From assembly GCA_002712335.1 (NCBI GenBank), contig PATI01000008.1:21587-41232 (forward strand): DNA of 19,646 nt, given 5' to 3'. The notes under the pieces were generated by a model, which had not been told where the DNA came from, did no database searches, and worked only from the letters and a program-made list of their open reading frames with translations. The stretch's first letter is position 1. Every line of letters starts with the position of its first letter. Source of the DNA: Rhodospirillaceae bacterium (GTDB lineage: Bacteria; Pseudomonadota; Alphaproteobacteria; MPNO01; UBA2964). The translations under genes and the position numbers were made by a program. This document shows positions 1 to 19,646 of the stretch, piece after piece.

Positions 1-597
1 ACATATACATTCCTCTTCTTCTCCCACAATTGGTTTATGTATTATTGCTTCGTCTACGTCCTGCATATCACCAGCATTAAAAGATGAAATTTGATCACTG
101 TAACAGCCGGACAGTACTACGGTAACTTCCCGACCCCGGTGACCATGATCTGGGACAGGTTTTCCTGCCTTGATACGAAGAAGACGAGCAATGCCACCAT
201 CATCAGAAAGACCTAACATGTGCTGATAAACGCCCGGGCCAATATACTTCCAGGGAATATTATCAACGTCATGATTAACATATTTACGTAAGACAGGAGG
301 TATAATTGATTTTGTAGTGTAATACTCCTCCACAGTAGCAAATGGGCCAGGTGTTGCAGTTTCTGGAGATTCTGAATCTATATTTTCAAATACTTTGTCT
401 AACATGTTTGGTGACAACTCTTGATCAGGGGTATCTGCCAACAAAACTCCACCTACCGTTTCAGCTAGCTGAACACTAGCTCGACATTCTGGACAGAATG
501 AAAGGTGAGTAGCCACCGCCAAACTCCAACTTTCTGACAAGGCGCCAGCTGCATAGCTCATCAATAAATCGTCATGTGGGTGGTGGCTTACATTCAT
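1..597 (-). CDS. chrR: ChrR-type zinc anti-sigma factor, cut by the left window edge
   Basis: The partial reading frame gives 199 residues without a stop. Its ATG overlaps the sigma factor stop as ATGA (594-597), so the two genes are translationally coupled. The N-terminal zinc anti-sigma domain shows H6, H31, C35 and C38 (HLSFCPECR), the same numbering I recall for the Zn ligands of Rhodobacter sphaeroides ChrR. A C-terminal cupin domain follows, with H151, H153, E157 and H187 as its probable metal site and a Cys-x-Cys at 197-199 at the window edge. In the family the N-terminal domain holds RpoE inactive in the cytoplasm, and the cupin domain is needed to release it under singlet oxygen. About 20-25 residues probably lie outside the window. 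The role is inferred from family and context; membership itself is close to certain. Confidence 0.95.
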   Translation of the reverse strand, partial: MNVSHHPHDDLLMSYAAGALSESWSLAVATHLSFCPECRASVQLAETVGGVLLADTPDQELSPNMLDKVFENIDSESPETATPGPFATVEEYYTTKSIIPPVLRKYVNHDVDNIPWKYIGPGVYQHMLGLSDDGGIARLLRIKAGKPVPDHGHRGREVTVVLSGCYSDQISSFNAGDMQDVDEAIIHKPIVGEEEECIC

Positions 598-1190
598 TGT
601 AAATCTCCTAACGCGTGACGTAATTTGGTGAAGGATAAACGCAAACGCGATTTAACTGTACCAAGTGGAATGTTAATAGCGTCTGCTATTTCTTGGTGAG
701 ACAAGCCCTCCAAAAAGGAGAGTGTTACAACCTCCCTTTGATCATCAGGCAATTGATTAATTGAAAGTTTTACACGATCCACTAATGCGGATTGTTCAAC
801 GTTTTGCAATGGCGTTGGCGTTTCGTCCGGTTTAAACATTGGATCATCTGGATCTAGAAGAGGCTTATTTTCTTTTCGCAAGCGGTCTATTCTTAAATTT
901 CTGGCAATAGTAAAAATCCAAGTCGTGGCTGACGATTTTTTAGGATTAAATTGCTCAGCCTTTCGCCAAACACGTATGAAAGTTTCCTGTGTAATTTCTT
1001 CAGATGCTACCGGATCGCCTCCAATTTTCATCATGTAGGCTTTAACCCGTGGACCTATTTTTCTAAACAAAGTAGCAAAAGCTTCGCGATCTTTTGCAGA
1101 CCCTATTTTCATTAACAGATCATTATCAGAGGGTGTCACTTCAAGCTTTACCTTGGGCTGATTTCTTAAGGACAAAAAATTTCCGCTCAT
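594..1190 (-). CDS. rpoE: ECF sigma factor RpoE (ECF11, singlet-oxygen type)
   Basis: This is an RNA polymerase sigma factor of the extracytoplasmic type. The product has region 2 (EEITQETFIRVWRKAEQF, then TTWIFTIARNLRIDRLR) and region 4 (LPDDQREVVTLSFLEGLSHQEIA with the HTH ending GTVKSRLRLS). It is paired with chrR through a 4-base overlap, the arrangement of the RpoE-ChrR singlet-oxygen switch. The reading frame extends to an ATG at 1289, but that codon lies only 4 bases past the likely -10 element (1294-1299) and so at or before the transcription start. The in-frame ATGs at 1208 and 1190 are better candidates. I chose 1190 (198 residues, GAGG just upstream, though unusually close); 1208 is possible. 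A promoter of its own type points to autoregulation. Confidence 0.93.
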   Translation of the reverse strand: MSGNFLSLRNQPKVKLEVTPSDNDLLMKIGSAKDREAFATLFRKIGPRVKAYMMKIGGDPVASEEITQETFIRVWRKAEQFNPKKSSATTWIFTIARNLRIDRLRKENKPLLDPDDPMFKPDETPTPLQNVEQSALVDRVKLSINQLPDDQREVVTLSFLEGLSHQEIADAINIPLGTVKSRLRLSFTKLRHALGDLQ

Positions 1191-1293
1191 ACCCTCATTT
1201 TGCGCCATGTTTGTCAATGTTCTTGGCACAAAATATGCTGTCGGCTTGCAGTTTAAAGTATTAAATCCGGTATCCTGAATATGTAACATAATT

Positions 1294-1323
1294 ATCTTAC
1301 GTTCAGTCTAGACCCTCAGATCA
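1294..1323 (-). promoter_or_regulatory. Candidate RpoE-dependent promoter of rpoE-chrR
   Basis: Read on the minus strand: TGATCT (1323-1318), an 18-base spacer ending in CG, then TAAGAT (1299-1294). This matches the -35 TGATCC and -10 TAAGA that I recall for the autoregulated rpoE promoter of R. sphaeroides. It lies in the 44-base gap between the phrB stop and the longest rpoE frame, so rpoE-chrR can be transcribed separately from phrB. The motif is seen directly; its function is inferred. Confidence 0.75.
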
Positions 1324-1334
1324 TAAAAAAGTCT

Positions 1335-2891
1335 TTAATTTTGAATTTTAATACAATTCCCGCAATGACTTTTCAAAAATTCTGCTGATTGACTGCGTAC
1401 GATTTCTTTATGTTTTTCATCCTTAGATTGCCACATGCGGTAAGGCATTGATAATCTGGGATTTTTTTCGAGTTTGTGTTTATTACGATCTAGAAAGTCC
1501 CAATATAAATAATTAAATGGACAAGCATCTTTTCCTACTTTCTTTTTCACATCATAAGAACAGGAACTACAGTAGTTGGACATTTTATTGATATAATTAC
1601 CACTGGCCGCATAAGGTTTAGTTGCCAAGGTTCCTCCATCAGCGAATTGACTCATGCCGAGCGTATTAGGCAGCTCTACCCATTCATGAGCATCAGCGTA
1701 AACAGAAAGATACCACTCGTGAACAGCTTTAGGATCAATGCCAGCCAACATTGCAAAATTCCCCGTAATCATAAGCCTTTGGATATGATGAGCATATGCC
1801 TCCTCCATAGTTTGTTGTAGGCTCGCACTTAAACAGGCCATATTTGTTTTTCCTGTCCAATAAAACTCAGGCAATTTTCTTGAATTTTGGAAGAAATTAA
1901 GCTCCTGATATCGTGGCATCTTGAGCCAATAGATACCTCGGATAAATTCCCTCCAACCTATAATTTGCCTAATAAACCCCTCAGCAGAGTTCAATGGTAT
2001 CCTGCCTTGGCGGTATTGATCCTCAACACGCTCACAAACAACTAATGGGTCTAGGAAGCCAATATTTAAATAAAGAGATATTATAGAATGAAAAAGAAAA
2101 GCTTCTTCTTTTAAAAGAGCATCCTGATAGGTACCAAATGAAGCTAAAGAGTTTTCAATAAAACTTTGGAGAGCCTCTTCCGCTCCAGTCCGCGTTACCG
2201 CAAACCAAAAAGGCTCCAAAACTCCGTAGTTATCGGGAAAGTAGCCAGCAATAAGTTTAATCACCTCCTGCGTTATTAAATCTGGTTTGAAACGTTTAGG
2301 CCCATAAAAATTTTCAACTTTGTTGGCAGGCTTTCTATTGTCCTTATCAAAATTCCACTGTCCGCCTTCCGGCTCACCCTTATCAGTTAACAACAAACCT
2401 GTTTTTCGCCGCATATTTCGATAGAAATTTTCCATGCGAAGTTGCTGCCGCCCCGCTGCCCACTCGTCGAATTCAGTAGAGCTACAGATATATCTTGTGT
2501 CGTCAGGAATGGTTATATTAAATGTGGATAGATTATCTAATTTTTTAAGTTTTTCATAAAGTTGCCATTCGCCTGGTTTGGTAACAATGATCTGATCACA
2601 GCCATACTTTCTATAGACACCTTTAAGTTCTTTAATCAAAGAACCAGAATTTTGGAGGTCTTCAAGTTTTTGGTAGACTACCTGCCAGCCAGCCGACAAC
2701 AATTCGCTTTTAAAATGACGCATTGCAGAGAACAAAAACACCAACTTTTTTTTATGATGCGGCATCAAGGAAGCTTCTGAAGAAGCCTCCACTAAAAGCA
2801 CTAAATCACGATCCTTTTTAGCCTTCTTAAGAGAAGATATGTCTAAAGATAGTTGGTCCCACAGGATGAGGATGAGCGACTTATTGTCCAT
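1335..2891 (-). CDS. phrB: FeS-type photolyase/cryptochrome (PhrB/CryB class)
   Basis: 518 residues, full length for the FeS-BCP/CryPro class of the photolyase-cryptochrome family. These proteins bind FAD and a [4Fe-4S] cluster; characterised members repair (6-4) photoproducts or act as light-responsive cryptochromes. Four cysteines, C353, C441, C444 and C457 (CSSC, then ACPFN), have the spacing of the cluster ligands of Agrobacterium PhrB, shifted by three residues. The N-terminal part is a Rossmann-like antenna domain (LILILWDQLS). The C-terminal FAD region includes HIQRLMITGNFAML. The ATG overlaps the stop of the upstream DCC gene as TAATG (2889-2893), so the two are translated together. 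Placement beside rpoE-chrR and downstream of an RpoE-like promoter suggests induction by light-driven oxidative stress. Repair enzyme versus photoreceptor cannot be decided here. Confidence 0.95.
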   Translation of the reverse strand: MDNKSLILILWDQLSLDISSLKKAKKDRDLVLLVEASSEASLMPHHKKKLVFLFSAMRHFKSELLSAGWQVVYQKLEDLQNSGSLIKELKGVYRKYGCDQIIVTKPGEWQLYEKLKKLDNLSTFNITIPDDTRYICSSTEFDEWAAGRQQLRMENFYRNMRRKTGLLLTDKGEPEGGQWNFDKDNRKPANKVENFYGPKRFKPDLITQEVIKLIAGYFPDNYGVLEPFWFAVTRTGAEEALQSFIENSLASFGTYQDALLKEEAFLFHSIISLYLNIGFLDPLVVCERVEDQYRQGRIPLNSAEGFIRQIIGWREFIRGIYWLKMPRYQELNFFQNSRKLPEFYWTGKTNMACLSASLQQTMEEAYAHHIQRLMITGNFAMLAGIDPKAVHEWYLSVYADAHEWVELPNTLGMSQFADGGTLATKPYAASGNYINKMSNYCSSCSYDVKKKVGKDACPFNYLYWDFLDRNKHKLEKNPRLSMPYRMWQSKDEKHKEIVRSQSAEFLKSHCGNCIKIQN

Positions 2892-3388
2892 TAGAGATAG
2901 AAGAGCAAATGTTGAGCTTTATTGTATGGCCTTTCCGCATGTATTTTGTTTACAACAATTTTGTGAGTTTTTTGATGAATTGCAGGTCCGAGTTCTTTTT
3001 TAGATTGATGGTGAGAAGCAGTAGTCTTTAGTAGGCGCTGCAGCACAGGCCTAAAGACAAGAAACATTAGATAAAAAAATTCTAATAAATAAATGATTGG
3101 TTTTTTTCGGGCAATAATCCCATATGCCCTGAAAGCCGGCAGCAGCGTCCATAGTGCAGCAAAGGCTGCCGCTCCTGATAGTAATCCTGTCTCATCATTA
3201 AATATATGAAAGCGCTTCATTGCTATTTTCGGATTTAAATCAGGGTGCAGTTTTCCTTTCCCGGTGGGGGAAATGTCTTCCCAAACAATTTTGTCCGACT
3301 CGGCAAACTTTTTGTAAAAGTTTATCTCTAAGCTGCATAAAGGACATGAACCATCATAATAAACGTGATTAGTGTTTTGGTTTATCAT
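2891..3388 (-). CDS. DCC-family (DUF393) thiol-disulfide oxidoreductase-like protein
   Basis: 165 residues. The N-terminal signature YYDGSCPLCSLEINFYKK (residues 10-27) with a CPLC pair defines the DUF393 or DCC family, predicted to have a thioredoxin-like fold with a CxxC redox centre. No substrate is known for most members. A hydrophobic stretch near residues 95-118 (IIYLLEFFYLMFLVF) could lie against or in the membrane. The tail is basic and histidine-rich. Its stop shares one base with the phrB start (TAATG), and an RpoE-like promoter lies about 85 bases upstream, so DCC and phrB form a two-gene unit. No clear Shine-Dalgarno sequence precedes the ATG. A redox role in the photo-oxidative response is inferred from position only. 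Confidence 0.88.
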   Translation of the reverse strand: MINQNTNHVYYDGSCPLCSLEINFYKKFAESDKIVWEDISPTGKGKLHPDLNPKIAMKRFHIFNDETGLLSGAAAFAALWTLLPAFRAYGIIARKKPIIYLLEFFYLMFLVFRPVLQRLLKTTASHHQSKKELGPAIHQKTHKIVVNKIHAERPYNKAQHLLFYL

Positions 3389-3473
3389 TTTTAATTAATG
3401 CCTTTTTTTATTTTTGAGACAAGTAAATTCACTGCATAAGATAACTTCAACTGTTAAGCGAGGTTATATAATT

Positions 3474-3503
3474 GTTTTACGTTTATGAATAAACTTTAGA
3501 TCG
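3474..3503 (-). promoter_or_regulatory. Candidate RpoE-dependent promoter of DCC-phrB
   Basis: On the minus strand: CGATCT (3503-3498), an 18-base spacer ending in CG, then TAAAAC (3479-3474). It shares GATCT, the spacer length and the ACG-TAA junction with the rpoE promoter. The spacer contains a 14-base perfect palindrome, GTTTATTCATAAAC (3481-3494). The expected transcript would have a leader of roughly 75-80 bases before the DCC gene. The -35 has one mismatch to TGATCY, so this is the weaker of the two minus-strand candidates. Confidence 0.55.
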
Positions 3504-3526
3504 ATCCAATCAATTTTAAGCGCCGG

Positions 3527-3556
3527 TGATCCATAATTTTCATTATAGCGTAACCC
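3527..3556 (+). promoter_or_regulatory. Candidate RpoE-dependent promoter of the small membrane protein gene
   Basis: TGATCC (3527-3532), an 18-base spacer ending in GCG, then TAACCC (3551-3556). The -35 is a perfect match to the R. sphaeroides-type consensus as I recall it; the -10 keeps only TAA. Transcription would start near 3563, just before the strong GGAGG ribosome site at 3573-3577. It lies back to back with the DCC-phrB candidate, with 23 bases between the two -35 elements. Confidence 0.55.
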
Positions 3557-3583
3557 CTACACAATGTAATTTGGAGGTATCAA

Positions 3584-3829
3584 ATGTCTTTATACTCAGT
3601 TGTTATGAATGATGATCAAAACCCCTTGAACGCCCTTCCAAAGCCCCAGCGCTTTCAGGCAATGGTTTTTCTTTCTTTAATGTGGTCGACTGTATTTTGC
3701 GTGGCCATAGGTTCTTGGGCCTATTGGGGCGAATTGGTCATTGGACATCTAGCTGTTGCCCTGGGAGTGATTTTAACCGGTCTTACTTTTCGTTCAGTCA
3801 ATAAAAATGAAGGATCTTCTGTAGATTAA
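3584..3829 (+). CDS. Small two-helix inner-membrane protein of unknown function
   Basis: 81 residues. A polar N-terminus (about 24 residues, with PLNALPKPQRF) is followed by two predicted membrane helices, roughly residues 26-47 (AMVFLSLMWSTVFC...) and 50-69 (ELVIGHLAVALGVILTGL), and a short polar tail. The first helix carries a Cys and several aromatic residues. GGAGG at 3573-3577, six bases before the ATG, fixes the start. I do not recognise a named family. The gene lies divergent from DCC-phrB behind an RpoE-like promoter and 56 bases ahead of the SDR gene, so an RpoE-controlled role at the membrane is the best inference. The ribosome site, hydrophobic pattern and position make a real gene likely. 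Confidence 0.8.
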   Translation: MSLYSVVMNDDQNPLNALPKPQRFQAMVFLSLMWSTVFCVAIGSWAYWGELVIGHLAVALGVILTGLTFRSVNKNEGSSVD

Positions 3830-3885
3830 TATTCGCATTGCACAGCTACGCGAAAGGGTAGTCTCAACAGAATTGTATTAAATAA

Positions 3886-4665
3886 ATGGATACATTCTCT
3901 CCCGACCTCGGCAGTAAATCATCCCTAACCTCTTTTTCTCGTGGGGCCAATGTTGCTGTCATAGGGGCAGGTGGGGGTATTGGTAAAGCTCTAGTTGATT
4001 GTCTATCGTTAGATGACAATAAACCAAACATTATAGCATTAAATCGAAGTGATATTAGAAGGTCCGGTTGGAAAGGGTTGTTCAAGGCGCTTGAATTAGA
4101 GAATGAAAGTTCTATTAAAGAAGCGGCGGAATTTATTAAGTGTAAAATGGGAAATCTCAGCGCTGTAATCGTAGCAACCGGTTTGTTGCATGACGATACA
4201 GGGATTAAGCCCGAAAAATCATGGAACTCTTTGGACCCGTATTCTATCGAGAGGGTTTACAGGGTAAATACGGTTGGCCCAGCTCTTGTGGCCAAGTATT
4301 TTCTCCCCCTACTAGATAATAATTGCAAGTCAGTTTTTGCCTGTCTATCAGCTCGCGTGGGTAGCATAGCCGATAATAATTTAGGCGGGTGGTACGCATA
4401 CCGAGCATCAAAAGCTGCCCTCAATATGGTATTGAAAAATCTTTCAATAGAGCTTCACCGAAAAAATAAAAGTGCTGTCTGCGTGGGTCTCCACCCCGGT
4501 ACCGTCAGTACAAAATTATCAAAGTCATTCAGCAATAATGTATCGCCTGAATCAATCGTCTCGCCTGAGCAAGCAGCCGTCAATCTATTATCAGTGTTAA
4601 ATGACTTAACGGTTAGCGATTCCGGTAAAATATTTGCCTACGATGGAAGCATTATCCCTTATTGA
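3886..4665 (+). CDS. Short-chain dehydrogenase/reductase (SDR)
   Basis: 259 residues, normal for a classical-type SDR. The cofactor motif GAGGGIG is at 27-33, the Asn motif VNTVGP around 127-132, the catalytic Ser near 155 (CLSARVGS) and the Tyr-Lys pair Y172/K176 in YRASK, so the active site is complete. HPGTVSTKLS follows the catalytic block, as in C-factor-like (CsgA-type) SDRs. The first 20 residues are an extra polar lead-in before the first beta strand; no downstream ATG precedes the GAGGGIG motif, so the start at 3886 stands despite a weak ribosome site. The gene follows the small membrane protein by 56 bases with no obvious terminator, so it may share its RpoE-like promoter. The substrate is unknown. 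Confidence 0.9.
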   Translation: MDTFSPDLGSKSSLTSFSRGANVAVIGAGGGIGKALVDCLSLDDNKPNIIALNRSDIRRSGWKGLFKALELENESSIKEAAEFIKCKMGNLSAVIVATGLLHDDTGIKPEKSWNSLDPYSIERVYRVNTVGPALVAKYFLPLLDNNCKSVFACLSARVGSIADNNLGGWYAYRASKAALNMVLKNLSIELHRKNKSAVCVGLHPGTVSTKLSKSFSNNVSPESIVSPEQAAVNLLSVLNDLTVSDSGKIFAYDGSIIPY

Positions 4666-4809
4666 TATCCGAGAAAAAGACAGATCTGAAAACTTGGTAA
4701 ATGATGATTTAATATACCTTCCCAAGTGTGATACTTTGTGTGTGGTTGTATAGACCGGCGAATTTGGGGCATAAAAGACCCAAATAAAATCACTAACAGA
4801 GATATTCAT

Positions 4810-5742
4810 ATGACCTATAAAGTAGCTTTACCCGACTTAGTTTCCAACTCATATTTCCCAGCCATAGCAGCCGTATACTTGGGGTTTTTCGAAGAAGAGG
4901 GTATCGATGCAGAAATCGAACTAATATTCCCAGTACCAGATTCTTTTTCGGCGCTCCGTGATGGCCACTGTGATTTTGTTGCAGGCTCCACACACGCTCC
5001 ACTTTGGGCATTCCCTAGATGGCAAGGATCCAAAGTGTTGTGTGCTCTTTCACAGGGTATGTATTGGTTTTTAGTAATGCGAAAAGATATTGATGTTAAA
5101 AAGGGTGACGTCAACGGCCTCAAAGGTTTGAGACTGGGCGCTGCTCCGGGGGTAGATGTTGGGCTTCGTCAATTATTGGTGGCCGCTGGAGTCGATGCTA
5201 ATGCGGAAAATATCACAATTGGATTACCGCCGGGTGGCATACCTGAAGGGAAATCCTTTGGAGTAGTAGCAGCACAAGCTTTAATTGATGGGAAAATAGA
5301 CGGTTTCTGGGCTAATGGCATGGGCGCTGAGGTCGCTATCACGAGCGGTATTGCTAAATGTATAATTGATGTACGAAGAGGTGATGGTCCGCCCGCTGCC
5401 TTTAATTTTACGCAACCAGCGTTAGTGACGACTAAAAAGTTAGTAGATGAAAAACCAGAAATTGCCGCTGGGGCGGTACGCGCTATTGTAAAGACACTCA
5501 ACGCTTTAAAAAAAGACGCCTCACTTGCAACCAAGGTCGCTCAAGGCTTATTTCCCGAAAAGGAAACAAGTCTAATTGCGAAGCTGATAGAGCGAGATCA
5601 ACCTTATTATGATGCCAAGATAAGCAAGGACCTAATCGATGGCATGAACCAGTTTGCCACTAATGCAGGTCTTCTTAAGGGCGGCCCAGTGGCATTTGAG
5701 GAGATAATTGCTACTCAGTTTAGCCACCTCTGGAAAAGCTAG
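4810..5742 (+). CDS. NMT1/THI5-like (ABC substrate-binding-fold) protein without signal peptide
   Basis: 310 residues from the ATG at 4810; an upstream in-frame GTG at 4738 is possible but adds an unlikely Cys/Arg-rich leader. The protein begins directly with the first strand of the binding-protein fold (KVALPDLVSNSYFPAIAAVYLGFFEEEGID), as in NMT1/SsuA/TauA-type proteins that bind small organic or sulfonate-like ligands. GGIPEGKSFGVVAAQALIDGKIDG fits the second lobe. Neither start gives a signal peptide or lipobox, and no ABC permease or ATPase gene is nearby. It may therefore be cytoplasmic, either a sensor or an enzyme; some enzymes such as 4,5-dihydroxyphthalate decarboxylase use this fold. 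It ends in TAG, nine bases from the convergent GST stop. Confidence 0.85.
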   Translation: MTYKVALPDLVSNSYFPAIAAVYLGFFEEEGIDAEIELIFPVPDSFSALRDGHCDFVAGSTHAPLWAFPRWQGSKVLCALSQGMYWFLVMRKDIDVKKGDVNGLKGLRLGAAPGVDVGLRQLLVAAGVDANAENITIGLPPGGIPEGKSFGVVAAQALIDGKIDGFWANGMGAEVAITSGIAKCIIDVRRGDGPPAAFNFTQPALVTTKKLVDEKPEIAAGAVRAIVKTLNALKKDASLATKVAQGLFPEKETSLIAKLIERDQPYYDAKISKDLIDGMNQFATNAGLLKGGPVAFEEIIATQFSHLWKS

Positions 5743-18994: not shown

Positions 18995-19588
18995 CTAAGA
19001 CCTTGGAATATTAGTCTCTCTTGGTGCGCGTTTTGCTAGAATTCTTTGTAGTGTTCTCCTATGCATGTTTAATCTTCTAGCGGTTTCAGACACATTTCTA
19101 TCACACTGTTCATACACGCGCTGAATATGTTCCCACCTTACTCTGTCAGCAGACATTGGGTTTTCAGGTGGTGGTGGCAAGTCAACTCCCCGGGTTAGTA
19201 AGGCTGATGCAACCTGATCGGCATCTGCAGGCTTTGCAAGATAGTCAATTGCACCTGCCTTAACTGCAGCAACGGCTGTCGCGATGTTTCCATAGCCAGT
19301 CAATATGATTATACGTGACTCGGGCTGTGCTTCCCGTATTACAGAAACGACATCTAGCCCACTGCCGTCATCTAAGCGTAAGTCAAGAACCGCATAATTA
19401 GGTGGTTCCAATTTAGCCATAGATATTCCCTCCGCGGCGCTCTCGACAGCGGTGACTATAAAACCTCTGCGCTCCATCGCTTTTGCCAGTCTTTCTCTAA
19501 AAGGTTTGTCATCATCAACAATTAATAATGTTTTTGGTTCTCGGTTTACATGGGATGCCGGCCCAACCTTTGTATCAATTTCATCCAT
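18995..19588 (-). CDS. regA: RegA/ActR/PrrA-family response regulator
   Basis: 197 residues from the ATG at 19588. The longer frame to 19642 is unlikely because that part encodes the end of the upstream sensor gene in another frame. The receiver domain has the acidic pocket DDD (25-27), phosphoacceptor D69 (AVLDLRLDDGSG), LTGYG and K119 (YLAKPADA). The linker LPPPPENP and the Fis-type HTH (NVSETARRLNMHRRTLQRILAKR) match RegA almost residue for residue. Together with RegB it controls redox-dependent genes such as respiration, nitrogen and carbon fixation, and photosynthesis. The start ATG lies in ATGGATGA, overlapping the sensor stop by eight bases. Confidence 0.95.
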   Translation of the reverse strand: MDEIDTKVGPASHVNREPKTLLIVDDDKPFRERLAKAMERRGFIVTAVESAAEGISMAKLEPPNYAVLDLRLDDGSGLDVVSVIREAQPESRIIILTGYGNIATAVAAVKAGAIDYLAKPADADQVASALLTRGVDLPPPPENPMSADRVRWEHIQRVYEQCDRNVSETARRLNMHRRTLQRILAKRAPRETNIPRS

Positions 19589-19646
19589 CAAATTCACCCT
19601 CAACGCTTTCCAACATTTCTCGGCGCCATTGTATCTCAACAACCGC
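19581..19646 (-). CDS. C-terminal end of a probable RegB/PrrB/ActS sensor kinase, cut by the right edge
   Basis: An open frame of 22 codons (21 residues and TGA, 19646-19581) enters from the right edge and ends inside the regA start (ATGGATGA). The visible residues, AVVEIQWRREMLESVEGEF, fit the last strand of an HATPase domain and the tail seen in RegB/ActS kinases, where gaVVxIxWpR is typical. Assignment rests on this short tail and on the conserved regB-regA order, so it is inferred. Only the end is in the window. Confidence 0.6.
   Translation of the reverse strand, partial: AVVEIQWRREMLESVEGEFDG

Follow-up and report, generated by a model that had tools for sequence, protein, structure and literature searches.

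Here we show that a 19,646-nucleotide stretch of a Rhodospirillaceae bacterium genome (contig PATI01000008.1, positions 21,587 to 41,232; hereafter the window), whose alphaproteobacterial host is probably marine, carries three copies of the element YGATCY-N16-CGTA, placed before the sigma and anti-sigma factor genes rpoE-chrR, before a DCC-family gene with the photolyase-type gene phrB, and before the gene of a small membrane protein (SMP) followed by that of a short-chain dehydrogenase/reductase (SDR). Judged by sequence, this is the true element of the three sites and is the published promoter of RpoE-ChrR systems, group 11 of the extracytoplasmic function (ECF) sigma factors (ECF11). We are confident that the locus is an RpoE-ChrR stress regulon of the Rhodobacter sphaeroides kind, with the mechanism proposed below, and RpoE control of the three promoters is very likely. 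Our results further suggest that two features are new: an unnamed SMP family as a candidate RpoE-driven target, and a start-codon rule for ChrR-type sigma genes.

The initial annotation had described three sites sharing YGATCY, an 18-base spacer and TAA, and all three are confirmed in position and strand. The site of rpoE-chrR lies on the reverse strand at 1298..1323 (TGATCT at 1323-1318, N16, CGTA at 1301-1298), that of DCC-phrB on the reverse strand at 3478..3503 (CGATCT, N16, CGTA at 3481-3478), and that of SMP and SDR on the forward strand at 3527..3552 (TGATCC, N16, CGTA at 3549-3552). All three match the pattern exactly, and the last is the only one that is also a perfect match to the published consensus TGATCC-N16-CGTA. 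The DCC and SMP sites are divergent, with their first bases 24 bp apart. YGATCY-N16-CGTA occurs exactly three times in the window, always inside the two promoter gaps, at a mean of 0.071 per shuffled sequence and with none of 1000 shuffles reaching three. The TAA form, YGATCY-N18-TAA, did not hold up as the shared pattern: it matches the window four times, averages 0.88 matches per shuffle and comes to three in 65 of 1000 shuffles. Its fourth match (1486, forward strand), without the CG, falls within the phrB gene but on the other strand. We also rejected TAA as the conserved part of the -10 element, since CGTA is what is kept in relatives and the third site of L179 (a contig introduced below) reads CGTATT. 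The annotation's emphasis on a CG closing the spacer was sound in that these bases carry most of the signal; they are not a junction, however, and by their sequence context are the start of the -10 element CGTA.

It is important to note that the CGTA pattern was chosen after the sites had been seen, but the architecture was published independently. The site found by chromatin immunoprecipitation sequencing in Pseudomonas syringae is TGATCC-N16-CGTA (PMC5507510), the R. sphaeroides RpoE promoter is given as TGATCC(N15)GCGTA (PMC5036791), that of Vibrio cholerae as TGATC-N16-18-CGTAW (PMC5241685), and the -10 element of Shewanella pgpD is written CGTAAT (PMC4336711).

Conservation was examined in two close relatives, L001 and L002, which are 92 and 97% identical to the window in the best PhrB segment and contain the whole cluster (locus numbers, L, denote fetched DNA stretches and genome numbers, G, searched genomes; L179 is the contig of L001 and L180 that of L002). 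Both keep all three sites and hold a fourth before a second SMP copy beyond chrR. In alignments of the orthologous gaps (window, L179, L180), where a lack of conservation would have spoken against the annotated promoters, motif columns are identical in 30 of 30 cases and other columns in 147 of 233; by gap, the motif values are 20/20 and 10/10 (the latter for the rpoE-chrR site) and those of the other columns 123/175 and 24/58. The autoregulatory promoter of rpoE-chrR and the promoters of DCC-phrB and SMP that had been proposed thus have ECF11 architecture and are kept in relatives. Conservation is not limited to the motif, because the stretch between the divergent -35 boxes (3504-3526) is identical in window, L179 and L180 except for two columns near the DCC -35 box; this stretch may hold a further control element. 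At DCC and photolyase sites the first -35 base tends not to be T: the window, L179, L180 and the phrB sites of L189 and L191 have C, and A is found ahead of the DCC-containing units of L188-L191 and in P. syringae phrB as published. Absence of T at this position is not a rule for such sites, as T is found in L004, L008, L013 and Shewanella.

Beyond the close relatives, an order-level set of 25 loci was assembled (two from the close relatives and 23 around ChrR or SMP matches of 14 other genomes), in which rpoE-chrR, DCC, photolyase, SMP and SDR genes recur, many of them with a site. Head-to-head sites, 16 to 29 bp apart from first base to first base, recur in L179, L180, L185, L188, L190 and L200. 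Other genes behind sites in relatives encode fasciclin, DUF3833, DUF6134, GTP cyclohydrolase I, a glyoxalase-type protein and a flavin amine oxidoreductase, and some sites are not followed by any open frame of 70 aa. A wider survey of rpoE covered 105 loci (the window, 16 order-level and 88 class-level loci), the last taken from the 142 of 385 genomes of a class-wide draw that gave a match; these were mostly the best-scoring, with G362 passed over and G186 added from lower down. The sigma gene was found in 96 of the 105, and 82 of these have a strict site upstream; the nine loci lacking an rpoE match include L189, owing to a contig end.

The initial annotation had regarded the locus as self-contained. 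Four sites elsewhere are common to the genomes of the close relatives, G001 and G002. One (L093/L098) stands before a flavin adenine dinucleotide (FAD) oxidoreductase on another contig (such a protein in L188 is an Amino_oxidase, PF01593), one (L105/L082) before a histidine phosphatase adjoining the locus, one (L085/L094) is followed at most by a small open frame some distance away, and one (L095/L096) lies inside a coding region and is probably due to chance. Given these sites and that of the second SMP copy, the regulon is clustered but not self-contained.

The SMP of the window (81 aa; 3584..3829, forward strand; two predicted helices; GGAGG at 3573-3577 ahead of it) had no match in Pfam or NCBIfam at E 0.001. 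An attempt to name it from Pfam failed: in all 26 SMP sequences searched to E 10 only scattered matches appeared, with none for the window protein, and the best (3.1e-5, matched by ten sequences) was to a two-transmembrane domain model. A database search gave 24 relatives, aligned as A1, and AlphaFold2 predicted helices at 20-46 and 48-75 with a mean pLDDT of 62 (low confidence). The SMP was found in 13 of 27 genomes of the order and in 24 of the 385 genomes of the class-wide draw. Among 18 order-level matches, of which G001, G002, G016 and G017 each give more than one and one (L124) has internal stops, 14 are preceded by a strict site within 250 nt; with all four bases equally frequent, about 6 in 10,000 single strands of 150 nt would be expected to contain one. 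The SMP match begins 46-81 nt from the site in 13 of these 14 cases and 143 nt from it in L120. Class-wide, nine of 23 new matches have a strict site in 300 nt, comprising eight of 13 with E below 1e-20 and one of ten more distant ones, a split that was set after the table had been seen. Of the 27 genomes, 11 have both SMP and ChrR (over cut-off), two only SMP, three only ChrR and 11 neither (Fisher p 0.0018, uncorrected for relatedness). The SMP gene is directly followed by an SDR gene in eight of 25 order-level loci, DCC stands between the two in L201, and the SDR is probably co-transcribed with SMP in the window.

Distant SMP relatives (L165, L167, L168, L169, L170-L176) show no strict ECF11 site in the 300 nt upstream, and in many of them the N-terminus is changed, for instance to LFDDxKNDLRALP or AEWNPLRxIP; L178, of the same distant group, has a strict site. 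By sequence these relatives may form a second group with other regulation.

The second new feature concerns the start of rpoE. Its start codon (1287..1289, reverse strand) lies 34 nt from the start of the site and 8 nt after CGTA, and the predicted transcription start is 1289. We infer that a six-base -10 element (CGTAAT) followed by a six-base gap would put initiation on the ATG itself, and the rpoE message is accordingly predicted to be leaderless and to encode a sigma factor with a variable N-terminal extension of about 40 to 55 residues, according to the point chosen as the beginning of the core (residue 59 aligns to residue 17 of the 2q1z chain, R. sphaeroides RpoE). In the 82 loci with a site, an ATG stands at 34 or 35 nt in 38, always in frame and open and never out of frame; at 36-37 nt six ATGs are in frame and one out, and at 38-109 nt the respective numbers are 63 and 52. 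GTG takes the place of ATG at 34 or 35 nt in five further loci, and L189 also shows the 34 nt spacing. Per open in-frame codon, the ATG rate is 19/31 and 19/28 at these two positions, against 76/2126 at 40-120 nt. Clustering the sigma sequences at 60% identity gave 23 clusters; such a start occurs in 12 of them and is therefore not the property of one lineage. Of 13 gammaproteobacterial loci taken, ten have a site and three a start at 34-35 nt.

Leaderless mRNAs are common in alphaproteobacteria, with 171 starts in Sinorhizobium meliloti (PMC3616915) and 62 leaderless mRNAs in Gluconobacter (PMC5756330). The transcript start of Shewanella rpoE2 has been mapped to an A downstream of the motifs (PMC4336711). 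In a limited search of open-licence literature, leaderless rpoE-chrR was not addressed among the matches listed, nor was the SMP family in work on small membrane proteins, singlet oxygen and sigma factors, and the available parts of PMC6852236, PMC3597554, PMC3441632, PMC10673084 and PMC4287350 give no ECF11 rpoE transcript start.

Several observations weigh against these interpretations, and three rival explanations deserve consideration. That the three matches arose by chance, with the genes driven by housekeeping promoters, would agree with the frequency of the TAA form in shuffles and with the genome-wide counts, as the CGTA pattern is not exclusive to the locus: G001 holds 18 matches against 14 for a backward control and G002 nine against seven, so that a pattern match alone proves nothing. 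Fourteen of the 96 rpoE loci lack a strict site, including the order-level relatives L188, L192 and L199 (for L220, at least, the sequence begins too near rpoE to judge). A rule placing a promoter before phrB failed in the best 80 of 169 relatives from a PhrB search of the genome collection, as a site less than 300 nt upstream was present in only three of them (none in the control); in L001 and L002 the site of the phrB unit stands upstream of DCC. Two of the 18 order-level SMP matches (L115, L116) have no site and two (L118, L119) a near match only. Chance is nevertheless hardly credible, given the behaviour of the CGTA form in shuffles, the clustering of matches at this locus (five of 18 in G001, within about 8.6 kb, and five of nine in G002), the retention of every motif column in both close relatives, the recurrence of sites before the same gene families in more distant ones, and the count of sigma-70-like matches in 500-5000, which shows no excess (eight, shuffle mean 11.5). 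It is also quite improbable that these are ECF promoters read by a different sigma factor of the genome, or by several. Several Pseudomonas fluorescens strains do have phrB homologues behind such a site while apparently not encoding the sigma factor (PMC5507510), and G013 and G016 have SMP but no ChrR match. In the window, however, one site is placed as for autoregulation and the sigma gene belongs to the RpoE-ChrR type, and in G016 a site lies 34 nt before a sigma gene cut by a contig end, so that its ChrR may simply be unassembled.

The remaining rival concerns the rpoE start: translation may begin further in, and the ATG at 34/35 nt may reflect, for example, a preferred initiating base. As many as 44 of the 82 loci with a site have no ATG at 34/35 nt, and 28 have their first in-frame start 46-75 nt from the site, a distance that leaves room for a leader. 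Furthermore, the extension shows no amino-acid constraint, its ratio of nonsynonymous to synonymous differences per site (pN/pS) being 0.86, 0.93 and 1.08 in the three pairwise comparisons among window, L179 and L180, as against 0.06-0.10 for the core. We nevertheless regard an internal start as unlikely, considering the complete frame bias at 34/35 nt against 63 to 52 further downstream, the spread over sigma clusters, and a frame that stays open over 54 codons, with no difference in length between window, L179 and L180. As pN/pS is near 1 at equal length, the start position would be kept while residues drift, which fits a leaderless start whose extension may be tolerated or used only as a bulk feature.

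We propose that ChrR holds RpoE until an oxidant, by homology singlet oxygen or an organic peroxide, frees it, and that freed RpoE would then direct polymerase to the YGATCY-N16-CGTA promoters; homology likewise is what points to a light/singlet-oxygen switch. Targets in the window would be rpoE-chrR itself, the DCC-(6-4)-photolyase unit and the SMP-SDR unit, the last two firing back to back. Since DCC, phrB, rpoE and chrR share one orientation and a search of 500-5000 gave no terminator-like site, the rpoE site is probably an internal promoter of one unit, and read-through from the DCC promoter into rpoE-chrR could supply a second feedback route. Transcription from the rpoE promoter would begin at the start codon, yielding a leaderless induced message and a sigma factor with a variable N-terminal extension. 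Our guess is that the SMP is membrane-protective and that its role is tied to the adjoining SDR.

With the R. sphaeroides system the locus shares the sigma/anti-sigma pair, promoter type (PMC5036791) and autoregulation, and a photolyase and an SDR among the core targets (as cited in PMC5507510). It differs in that its photolyase is of the FeS-BCP (6-4) type and lies behind a DCC gene, its targets include an SMP of an unnamed family, and its rpoE has a start codon 8 nt after CGTA and an extended N-terminus. Streptomyces sigma-R belongs to a different ECF group and uses a different promoter. There, two sigR promoters give rise to isoforms, sigma-R and the oxidant-induced, unstable sigma-R', which differ only by the N-terminal 55 residues and are paired with the anti-sigma factor RsrA (PMC4921905); here a single promoter is present, and leaderless translation of sigma-R' was not met in the available part of that source. 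Mycobacterium tuberculosis sigE, another ECF sigma gene, gives a leaderless transcript (sigEp1), but its leaderless promoter has a WhiB7 motif and its SigE/SigH-type promoter lies further upstream (PMC4921905), whereas in the window the autoregulatory promoter itself stands at the start codon. In Shewanella oneidensis RpoE2-ChrR, Table 1 of PMC4336711 lists the DPRP photolyase SO_4169 with the CsgA-type SDR SO_4170 and an RpoE2 promoter, and photolyase and SDR are therefore not new as targets; neither DCC nor SMP is named among the targets in the available part of that list.

Within the window, chrR (1..597, reverse strand, cut by the window edge) encodes a zinc anti-sigma factor with a cupin domain (TIGR02451, 180.7 bits against a cut-off of 124.5). 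The ChrR of L001 retains, relative to 2z2s (R. sphaeroides ChrR), the H-x3-C-x2-C zinc motif, the cupin HxHxxxE and CIC, and the window protein contains HLSFCPEC, HGHRGRE and CIC before the cut; we take the H-x3-C-x2-C and cupin residues to be metal ligands. The rpoE gene (594..1289, reverse strand; 231 aa, Sigma70_r2/r4) overlaps chrR by ATGA at 594-597, and its best match among PDB sequences is 2q1z with 127 bits, the next giving 72 bits. PhrB (1335..2891, reverse strand; PF04244), an FeS-BCP/(6-4)-photolyase-type protein 45 nt from rpoE, is similar to PhrB of PDB entry 4dja over its full length (residues 3-505 of 4dja, E 1.3e-186), with (6-4) photolyase entries next best; by inspection its translation holds a CSSC...C stretch, which may include some of the four cysteines of the 4Fe-4S cluster. 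The DCC-family thiol-disulfide oxidoreductase gene (2891..3388, reverse strand; PF04134) overlaps the phrB start by TAATG, and the SDR oxidoreductase (3886..4665, forward strand) matches PF00106, its best NCBIfam match, PRK09009, being below cut-off. Rfam gave no match in the window at gathering scores. At its far end (18995-19642, reverse strand) lies a response regulator that by inspection resembles the global redox regulator RegA/ActR.

In the relatives, a 474-aa protein is encoded behind an ECF11-type site and divergently from rpoE in L191 (9653-11074) and L189 (near 17537); Pfam gives only a sub-threshold PaaA_PaaC match for the L191 copy, and the protein presumably resembles the benzoyl-CoA epoxidase subunit BoxB. 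G017 holds two rpoE-chrR modules, each with its own SMP copy, and in L191 the chrR of one of them (G017:C1:897088-897742) reads as two overlapping pieces, possibly through a frameshift or sequencing error. Beyond chrR, L001 (9850-13080) carries, by inspection, ubiX, folE, a second photolyase of the classical cyclobutane pyrimidine dimer type and a DUF2177-like membrane protein; Pfam confirmed the FolE type in L184 only. The proximity of genes for pterin synthesis and flavin prenylation to photolyases suggests a supply of cofactors.

Taken together, we hold it somewhat probable that nearly half of the alphaproteobacterial RpoE-ChrR systems examined have their promoter locked to the start codon, giving a leaderless message with a fast-evolving extension as an analogue of sigma-R' that may shape feedback as a form which is short-lived or translated separately, and that the SMP family is a standing member of the response. 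If true, the start-codon spacing would add a translation-level rule to a classic sigma/anti-sigma feedback loop, and the SMP family gains a likely condition of expression, photo-oxidative stress, together with neighbours (SDR, DCC, photolyase) through which its function may be probed.

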